Below the pieces are notes generated by a model. It saw nothing but the letters and a program-made list of their open reading frames with translations. It had not been told where the DNA came from and made no database searches. Below, in pieces: positions 3,601-6,359 of a DNA stretch of 41,089 bases; within the stretch, counting starts at the first letter, position 1; every line of letters starts with the position of its first letter. Position numbers and translations under genes: made by a program. This stretch comes from Bdellovibrionales bacterium (GTDB lineage: Bacteria; Bdellovibrionota; Bdellovibrionia; Bdellovibrionales; UBA1609), in NCBI GenBank assembly GCA_022450595.1, contig JAKUPT010000007.1:1-41089 (forward strand), written 5' to 3'.

Positions 3601-4248
3601 TTGTTTATAAAGCTAATGGTTTTGTGTTTTTTAAGCCTGCAGGCCTTTGGGGAGAAGAAAGACTTAAGGCTGATCAAAGAGGCCTTTGACAGTTATTGGA
3701 GCTCAGAGCTTGTAAGTATGGATGTAGAGCGAGAGAACACCTATTCATTGCTTGATAAAACTGAGACCTCTAAAGGAAAAATGTATTTTTCTAAAGGTCA
3801 GTTGAGACTAAATATGCATGACCCTAAGCCAAGTCACCTAGTTATTGGTGAAGATGTGATTTGGTTTGCTGAAAAATCAGATTTTGAAAAAGACAAATGG
3901 GTGGTTGTTAAAGTAGCCAAAGATAAAGCCAAAAGAGCTCAAGCTTTCTTTAATCTATTATTTGGAAACACCGGTGTGACTAAAAAGTTAGAGTTGATCG
4001 GTAACAATAAAGTTAAAGACTTTGAAAGTTACATTTTAAAACCAAAAAATGCCTCTGAGTTTCCTGGGGTGACTAAGCTTGCCATTATTTTTCACCAAAA
4101 AACCAAAGAGGTGATGTTTTTACAGTACTGGGATGATTTAGAAAATAAAACATCTTATGAGCTAACTAATATTGAAAGAAAAGAAAAGTCTGACAAAAGC
4201 CTTTTTAAATACACGCCTCCTAAGAATTCAGACGTGACCGTATATTGA
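3601..4248 (+). CDS. lolA: LolA-like periplasmic outer-membrane lipoprotein carrier
   Basis: LolA shuttles lipoproteins from the LolCDE transporter through the periplasm to the outer membrane. This protein has a signal peptide (FIKLMVLCFLSLQAFG) and a body of alternating beta strands with LolA-like features: KGKMYFSKGQLRL, an aromatic WFAE strand, and a C-terminal FKYTPPKNSDVTVY resembling the family's F-x-P-P-x-x-x-D-V ending. I chose TTG 3601 because AAGGAG (3589-3594) is 6 bases upstream and it gives a clean signal peptide; GTG 3577 and ATG 3616 are alternatives. Similarity is at fold level, so a related LolA-like protein is possible. The end of the gene provides part of the SD for rimO. 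Confidence 0.72.
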   Translation: MFIKLMVLCFLSLQAFGEKKDLRLIKEAFDSYWSSELVSMDVERENTYSLLDKTETSKGKMYFSKGQLRLNMHDPKPSHLVIGEDVIWFAEKSDFEKDKWVVVKVAKDKAKRAQAFFNLLFGNTGVTKKLELIGNNKVKDFESYILKPKNASEFPGVTKLAIIFHQKTKEVMFLQYWDDLENKTSYELTNIERKEKSDKSLFKYTPPKNSDVTVY

Positions 4249-4256
4249 GGAAGTAC

Positions 4257-5645
4257 ATGGAAATTAAAAATCAAAACGACAATGAAAATAAAAAAGTTCA
4301 CTTTGTAAGTTTGGGATGCCCTAAAAACTTGGTCGACACCGAGATCATGTTGGGCTCTCTCACCCAAGAAGGTTACAGCGTGACAGACAACGCAGACGAA
4401 GCGGACACGGTGATTGTAAACACTTGTGGATTTATTGAAGACTCAAAAAAAGAATCCATTCAAACCATTATTGAAATGGGTGAAAAGAAAAACAAAAACT
4501 TAAAAAAGCTCGTTGTAGCGGGTTGCCTGACTCAAAGATATAAAGATGAACTCGTCGAAGGGCTTCCTGAAGCCGATATTTTTATTGGCTCGGGTGCTTT
4601 TCAAAACATCGCCGATATTTTAAAAAACCCCGGTAAAGATGAAAACGGCAGTGTACAAAAAAAGTTTTTCTATTTGCCAACTTATCTTCAGCAAGAAGGC
4701 ACACCCAGAGTTAACACCCAGCCTAAATACAGAGCCTATTTAAAAATCTCTGAGGGCTGTAAAAAACGTTGCGCTTTTTGTGCCATTCCAATGATCAGAG
4801 GTAACTTACAGTCGCGCTCTCTTGATGCCGTAGTAAGTGAATCAAAACTTTTAGTGGCCGGTGGTGTGAAAGAGCTAATTGTGATTTCTCATGATTTTAC
4901 TGACTACGGTTGGGACTTAAAAAGAAAAGACAAAACCCGTACAGAGTCTCCCTATGAGTTATTAAAAGCTCTTTCCGATAATTCTGGTGCTCAATGGATT
5001 CGTTTACTTTATTTGTACCCAGATGGCATAACTCCAGAGGTGATTGAGCTGATCAAAAGCCGCGACAACTTAGTAAAGTACTTTGATATGCCTCTTCAAC
5101 ACATTAGCAACTCAGTTCTTAAGCGCATGAATCGCCGAATGACCAAGGAAGAGATTGAAGAGGTCTTGAAAAATATTAAGGCTGAAATTCCAGAAGCTGT
5201 GATAAGAACTCAATTTATTGTGGGCTTTCCTGGTGAGACGGAAGAAGAGTTTCAAGAGCTTTTAAAGTTTGTGGAAGAGCAGCAGTTTGACCGTGTGGGG
5301 TGTTTTAAATACTCACCAGAAGAAGGAACCAAAGCGGGAAGCATGCCTGATCAAGTTGATGAAGCCACTAAGCAGCGTCGTCATGATCAGCTTATGGAGT
5401 TGCAGCAAGATATTTCAAGAAAGCGTCACCAAGCCATGATTGGCAAAGTGCTGCCTGTATTGGTGGAGGGCTTTAGTGAGGAAACAGACTTGTTACTACA
5501 AGGCCGAAGCTCACAACAAGCACCTGATATAGACGGTGTGGTTTATATCAATGAGGGTGATGCCAGTGTTGGAGACATGGTGAATGTTGAAATCACTGAC
5601 AGCCATGACTACGATCTTTTAGGAAAGATTGTTTCTAAACAGTAA
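4257..5645 (+). CDS. rimO: ribosomal protein S12 methylthiotransferase RimO
   Basis: A radical-SAM enzyme that adds a methylthio group to the conserved aspartate of ribosomal protein S12. The N-terminal UPF0004 domain shows its cluster cysteines in SLGCPKNLVDTE, NTCGF and AGCLTQR. The radical-SAM motif CKKRCAFC has cysteines at about 168, 172 and 175. A C-terminal TRAM domain is present (VLVEGFSEETDLLLQGRSSQ). The SLGCPKNLVD signature favours RimO over the tRNA enzyme MiaB. ATG 4257 follows TGAGG and overlaps no coding sequence. It directly follows the LolA-like gene and is probably co-transcribed. Confidence 0.95.
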   Translation: MEIKNQNDNENKKVHFVSLGCPKNLVDTEIMLGSLTQEGYSVTDNADEADTVIVNTCGFIEDSKKESIQTIIEMGEKKNKNLKKLVVAGCLTQRYKDELVEGLPEADIFIGSGAFQNIADILKNPGKDENGSVQKKFFYLPTYLQQEGTPRVNTQPKYRAYLKISEGCKKRCAFCAIPMIRGNLQSRSLDAVVSESKLLVAGGVKELIVISHDFTDYGWDLKRKDKTRTESPYELLKALSDNSGAQWIRLLYLYPDGITPEVIELIKSRDNLVKYFDMPLQHISNSVLKRMNRRMTKEEIEEVLKNIKAEIPEAVIRTQFIVGFPGETEEEFQELLKFVEEQQFDRVGCFKYSPEEGTKAGSMPDQVDEATKQRRHDQLMELQQDISRKRHQAMIGKVLPVLVEGFSEETDLLLQGRSSQQAPDIDGVVYINEGDASVGDMVNVEITDSHDYDLLGKIVSKQ

Positions 5646-5711
5646 TTCTTTATAAGAATAGTCTTTGGGGTCTAAGTTCCTGAAAATACAAAATTATTTC
5701 TTGACTTACCG

Positions 5712-5748
5712 AGCCACGGTCCCCCAGAATAAAAGGTGGCTAGGGGAT
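5712..5748 (+). promoter_or_regulatory. structured leader: interlocking stems over a ribosome-binding site
   Basis: AGCCAC (5712-5717) is complementary to GTGGCT (5736-5741), and GTCCCC (5719-5724) in the intervening loop is complementary to GGGGAT (5743-5748). The second pair covers the SD (AGGGGA, 5742-5747) of the short ORF at 5755. The two helices cross, so they could form an H-type pseudoknot or act as alternative hairpins with the SD free or hidden. The 11-base A-rich linker and the single base between the two 3' strands make the full pseudoknot somewhat strained. A TTGACT at 5701 lies too close to serve as its -35 element. I did not match it to a named riboswitch class. Confidence 0.4.
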
Positions 5749-5754
5749 GCAACT

Positions 5755-5832
5755 ATGATTTCAGGACAACTTGTGATGTTTTTTGTTTATTCAGTAATGA
5801 TATTTTTTGTGGTTAACGTATTAGTTAATTAA
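5755..5832 (+). CDS. candidate 25-residue hydrophobic membrane peptide
   Basis: ATG 5755 has an SD-like AGGGGA (5742-5747) 7 bases upstream and encodes 25 residues ending at TAA 5832. The sequence is MISGQL followed by one continuous hydrophobic segment (VMFFVYSVMIFFVVNVLV) long enough to cross a membrane. The stop abuts the stop of the convergent hpt gene. No plus-strand gene follows, so it is not a leader peptide for a downstream gene. Size and composition resemble small membrane proteins and type I toxin peptides, but that is analogy only. It could also be a fortuitous ORF in an AT-rich spacer. Confidence 0.4.
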   Translation: MISGQLVMFFVYSVMIFFVVNVLVN

Positions 5833-6348
5833 TTACTGACTGAATGTAAACAAGCCTTCGTAATTTCGACCGTACTCTTCGGAATCCATTCCATACCCAA
5901 TCACATAGCGATCATCAATAGTTTTACCAATATAATCAGGCTTAATAGGAAGCTCGCGACGGGCGGGTTTATCAAACAGACTGACCACTTTTAAGGTTTC
6001 AGGGTCGTTGGCCAGTAAACGTTTTACTAAAAACGACAAAGTACGTCCTGCGTCTACAATCTCTTCAAGTATAAGTACATCTTTTCCAGTAATGTCTATG
6101 GAGATGTCTTTAAGGATTCTTACGCCCTCATTTTTTGGCGAAGTCAGGTGAACAAAATCCAACTCTTGATCTAAATTGATTTTTCTCATTAGGTCGGCCA
6201 CAAACAAAAAAGAGCCTTTTAGTGGGCAGATCATTACAAGCTTACGACCGGCATAATCACGCTCGATTTGTTGTGCTAAGCTTTCTACAAGATCTTCGAT
6301 TTCTTCTTTTGTGATGAAGGGGATCATTTCGCTTTTCATTTGTGCCAT
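5833..6348 (-). CDS. hpt: hypoxanthine phosphoribosyltransferase
   Basis: A purine-salvage enzyme that transfers phosphoribose from PRPP to hypoxanthine or guanine in the cytosol. The PRPP loop is DVLILEEIVDAGRTLSFL; other family segments are PLKGSFLFVADLMRKI, DFVHLTS and the C-terminal PDYIGKTIDDRYVIGYGMD. ATG 6348 is 7 bases after AGGAGA; the GTG two codons upstream is less well placed. It is the last gene of a minus-strand run that begins with bamD and the TPR gene. The loop glutamate pair reads EE where many homologues have ED, a conservative change. Confidence 0.93.
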   Translation of the reverse strand: MAQMKSEMIPFITKEEIEDLVESLAQQIERDYAGRKLVMICPLKGSFLFVADLMRKINLDQELDFVHLTSPKNEGVRILKDISIDITGKDVLILEEIVDAGRTLSFLVKRLLANDPETLKVVSLFDKPARRELPIKPDYIGKTIDDRYVIGYGMDSEEYGRNYEGLFTFSQ

Positions 6349-6359
6349 GGCCACATCTC

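Follow-up and report, generated by a model that had tools for sequence, protein, structure and literature searches.

A conserved single-span membrane peptide gene of the Bdellovibrionales, with an apparent RNA pseudoknot that largely coincides with its predicted promoter

Introduction

The window analysed here, a 41,089-nt stretch of the genome of a Bdellovibrionales bacterium (UBA1609), contains a 187-nt spacer between rimO and a convergent hpt-type gene, and in this spacer lies a hydrophobic open reading frame of 25 codons (5755–5832, + strand). Two short complementary pairs cross each other immediately upstream, the second of them covering the Shine-Dalgarno (SD) sequence of the frame. Is this a small membrane protein under the control of an RNA switch, a type I toxin kept silent, or an ordinary small gene whose upstream sequence only looks like a folded RNA? 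The initial annotation had proposed either a type I toxin or a ligand-controlled small membrane protein; the comparison with homologous loci described below upholds the small membrane protein, and neither the toxin nor the ligand control.

Results

The frame encodes the peptide MISGQLVMFFVYSVMIFFVVNVLVN, and its stop codon abuts that of the hpt-type phosphoribosyltransferase gene (5833–6354, − strand; Pfam Pribosyltran), a convergent neighbour conserved by synteny. On the other side lies rimO (4245–5645, + strand), coding for a radical-SAM methylthiotransferase (Pfam UPF0004, Radical_SAM and TRAM) and retained on the upstream side in the window's family. The SD sequence AGGGGA (5742–5747) has the ATG 7 nt downstream, and an SD-like motif precedes the start in 57 of 59 homologues. 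The same 59 loci, a set for which no genome of the organism's own genus was found, underlie all counts of motifs, SD sequences, stems and hydropathy given here.

A peptide-coding frame of this kind lies far beyond chance expectation. Over 209 pairs of homologues pN/pS is 0.125, substitutions at the first, second and third codon positions number 598, 263 and 2440, respectively, with a clear excess at third positions, and many close pairs differ by synonymous changes only. These codon statistics argue for strong purifying selection at the protein level. The frame is very short and has no match in the protein-family libraries searched (Pfam, PADLOC and NCBIfam), as would befit a chance or decaying frame caught within the rimO-hpt spacer; that reading is refuted by the purifying selection, the synteny, the single copy in 95 genomes and the conserved promoter and SD sequence, and its probability is close to nil. 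The ORF is almost certainly a genuine gene, and the single-span hydrophobic membrane peptide that the initial annotation read from one sequence stands as a conserved, selected, single-copy gene with its own SD sequence. A profile search of the PDB gave one match, photosystem II PsbI (E 0.18), which was set aside as chance similarity over an 11-residue hydrophobic stretch.

The gene appears to belong to one order. A profile built from 27 peptides matched 95 of the 141 genomes of the Bdellovibrionales, exactly once in each, and beyond the order an earlier profile run on a sample of the phylum gave no more than weak, partial matches. At the DNA level, the spacer matches three other genera of the family at 75–81% identity, and these matches run from one end of the ORF to the other, give or take a few bases, the flanks being without alignment. 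A scan of genome contigs for close alignments returned ten loci, all in Bdellovibrionales, and the named relatives carrying it are classified under Bdellovibrionales, Bdellovibrionaceae or Pseudobdellovibrionaceae, UBA1609 included. The peptide represents an undescribed family of this order, of a known kind.

The genomic surroundings are equally constant. In the window's family and in several others the order is rimO, peptide gene, in some cases an extra gene, and then hpt in the opposite direction; pattern scoring places the peptide gene next to hpt in most loci, and the gene is fixed beside rimO or hpt in most lineages. It also adjoins hpt in Bdellovibrio, where the opposite side is in many species occupied by a divergent chemoreceptor gene; the upstream place of rimO is taken by a divergent gene for a methyl-accepting chemotaxis protein at L028, L030 and L048, among other Bdellovibrio loci. 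About ten genomes (L014:278-1501, L092, L097 and other loci of the family) have a gene of ~400 amino acids between the peptide gene and hpt. Its product has no Pfam or NCBIfam match; an apparent signal peptide and aromatic C-terminal end make it look like an outer-membrane barrel. The statement of the initial annotation that no gene follows on this strand is therefore true of the window and fails in several relatives, where this gene precedes hpt.

Most members of the window's family that have small genomes lack the peptide, as do a few with larger ones, and within this family its loss goes with genome reduction. Reduced genomes that lack it measure ~2.1 Mb or less (G001, G012, G013, G016 and G028-G030). 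In two peptide-less genomes, G003 and G017, the loss from the rimO-hpt position is real, because only ~30 nt are left between hpt and the next open frame, which in G003 is rimO. Having been lost in small-genome relatives and in some larger ones, the peptide is therefore dispensable there.

One homologue lies at about 108,514–108,585 of a 3,782,950-base genome, which we take to be that of B. bacteriovorus HD100. Eight attack-phase sRNAs have been listed for HD100 (PMC3627812), and the peptide gene at 108.5 kb matches none of them; nor is it the hit-locus sRNA of that strain, which is located at 96,436–96,822 (PMC3818213).

Upstream of the ORF, a promoter scan gave a −35 box, TTGACT (5701–5706), and a −10 box, CAGAAT (5725–5730), with a spacer of 18 nt. 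The homologues carry an equivalent arrangement: an exact TTGAC occurs 35–95 nt before the start in 50 of the 59, against 3.4 expected, followed in most of them at 16–18 nt by a −10-like box. These conserved boxes indicate that the peptide gene has its own sigma70-type promoter. From the promoter spacing, transcription would start near 5737 and leave a leader of ~18 nt, and the leaders estimated for the homologues are mostly 11–33 nt long.

In Bdellovibrio the spacer of this promoter is itself conserved, as is seen at loci L114-L118. The consensus there reads TTGACGnAGGTCnTAAG-N6-TARNTT, and in the five Bdellovibrio genomes tested a full match occurs once per genome and always at the peptide gene, which suggests a gene-specific control element. 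A corresponding role might be proposed for the window, where the inverted repeat AGCCAC-N18-GTGGCT surrounds the −10 box and could be a DNA operator controlling the promoter in this lineage only. The position of the repeat and the unusual conservation of the Bdellovibrio spacers speak for such an operator; yet the crossing arrangement recurs in no other homologue, no alignment extends from the ORF into the upstream DNA, and repeats with 6-bp arms are common by chance, so that we regard it as very unlikely.

The letters of the two crossing pairs are as first described. In stem 1 (5712–5741), AGCCAC (5712–5717) is complementary to GTGGCT (5736–5741), over the promoter spacer and the −10 box; in stem 2 (5720–5747), TCCCC (5720–5724) pairs with GGGGA (5743–5747), and the G5719-T5748 wobble would raise the number of pairs to six. 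The geometry is as tight as the initial annotation had noted, a single base separating the two 3′ arms. Combinations of this type, with crossing Watson-Crick stems of 6 and 5 bp, arise in 31% of the sequences when the 187-nt spacer is dinucleotide-shuffled, and in 1.9% when only its GC-rich 56-nt core is shuffled; there are 139 of them on the + strand of the 41-kb window. Crossing stems near the start occur at a single one of the 59 homologous loci, that of the window, the expected number being 0.63. Neither helix shows conservation or covariation in the homologues, whose spacers align only inside the ORF: the ORF is retained and the stems are not, the outcome that had been named beforehand as counting against a structured RNA.

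These results bear directly on the possibility that a pseudoknot riboswitch or another cis-regulatory RNA at 5712–5748 controls the peptide. The two interlocking pairs, with the second over the SD sequence, resemble preQ1-I and other H-type pseudoknot riboswitches, in which pairs likewise cross and the last arm lies on the SD, and a transcript reading through from rimO would carry both arms. Unlike those riboswitches, however, the proposed structure has a 10-nt middle loop and a 1-nt last loop, and its stems are unconserved. Rfam gave no match at the gathering score and, in permissive mode, one chance match only (E 2.9), and under an energy model that is free of pseudoknots no segment tried is more stable than shuffled sequence (z +0.8, +0.5, +0.5 and +0.2). 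Moreover, both 5′ arms (5712–5724) sit between the −35 and −10 boxes; because the start of transcription is placed at about 5737, they would belong to the promoter spacer and be missing from the mRNA of the gene itself, and they would enter RNA only by read-through from rimO. An RNA switch is thus extremely improbable, and the hidden SD, the pseudoknot and the ligand control of the initial annotation fall with it. We consider both stems most likely to be chance complementarity within a promoter, with no role of their own.

A second possibility is that the peptide may be toxic or pore-forming, and more specifically a type I toxin kept silent in two ways, through sequestration of its SD and through antisense RNA that the convergent hpt transcript would supply. 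Its size and hydrophobicity fit, as they do for Ibs, ShoB, TisB and TimP, and with abutting stop codons a transcript reading through from hpt would be complementary to the mRNA of the peptide. Against this, and unlike the type I toxins, the peptide comes as a single copy per genome, retained at one locus across the order, with neither evidence for an antitoxin RNA nor a structured leader. Sequestration of the SD is unconserved, the leader is too short, and no leader structure capable of holding off translation was found in the homologues, given the stem count and leader lengths reported above. A consensus scan of 5650–6354, of a kind that cannot exclude a promoter, returned none on the minus strand. 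The convergence with hpt that antisense control requires is in addition interrupted in several relatives, because the ~400-aa gene is inserted between hpt and the peptide gene. A type I toxin under antisense hpt control, as first suggested, is consequently unlikely.

The membrane character of the peptide is preserved throughout the family. In all 59 homologues the highest mean hydropathy over 19 residues is at least 2.36, with a median of 2.87. Lys and Arg residues number 27 within the first eight positions, none in the middle and one at the C-terminal end, and acidic residues are absent. Phe18 is invariant and Val14 and Asn21 are nearly so, and the conservation follows a helical periodicity (p=0.026).

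Discussion

Taken together, the sigma70-type promoter and the ~18-nt leader with an ordinary, open SD sequence would make 5701–5832 an independent and complete small gene. Its product would insert in the inner membrane as a single span. According to the positive-inside rule, the end rich in Lys and Arg stays cytoplasmic; because nearly all charges are Lys or Arg of the first eight residues, the N terminus is placed in the cytoplasm, and the C terminus would then lie at or just past the outer face of the inner membrane. Buried asparagine drives helix-helix packing, and the face formed by Val14, Phe18 and Asn21 may pack against another transmembrane helix. The fitness of this conserved face for packing leads to the hypothesis of an accessory or regulatory subunit, in which the peptide would stabilise or regulate a larger protein of the membrane, as CydX, KdpF and AcrZ do. 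The explanation as a whole, with the accessory-subunit role included, is in our judgement rather probable on the basis of sequence comparison.

CydX, KdpF and AcrZ of Enterobacteria are likewise tiny and conserved, with one hydrophobic helix and few charges, a likeness of general build rather than one traced in the sequence. The genes for CydX and KdpF lie beside those of their partners, whereas the neighbours of the peptide gene, rimO and hpt, code for soluble enzymes. Identity with CydX itself is ruled out, since the genome of the window has no cytochrome bd subunit I: PF01654 is absent from it and from 123 of the 141 genomes of the order. Phylogenetic profiles with the oxidase families PF00115 and PF01654 yielded no partner, the heme-copper oxidases (PF00115) being so nearly universal in the order as to be uninformative.

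More speculatively, these peptides of about 25 residues could form a family of modulators acting on a membrane complex peculiar to the Bdellovibrionales, for example one of the predatory life cycle, with the Bdellovibrio promoter carrying a dedicated control element; we offer this as a tentative and rather doubtful extension.

For sequence annotation, the locus illustrates that what looks like an RNA pseudoknot covering an SD sequence can be promoter sequence and for the most part untranscribed. For the biology of the group, a model predatory bacterium gains a well-supported gene that is found neither in Pfam or NCBIfam nor in the papers searched, and its exact address in HD100 makes it open to deletion and tagging.
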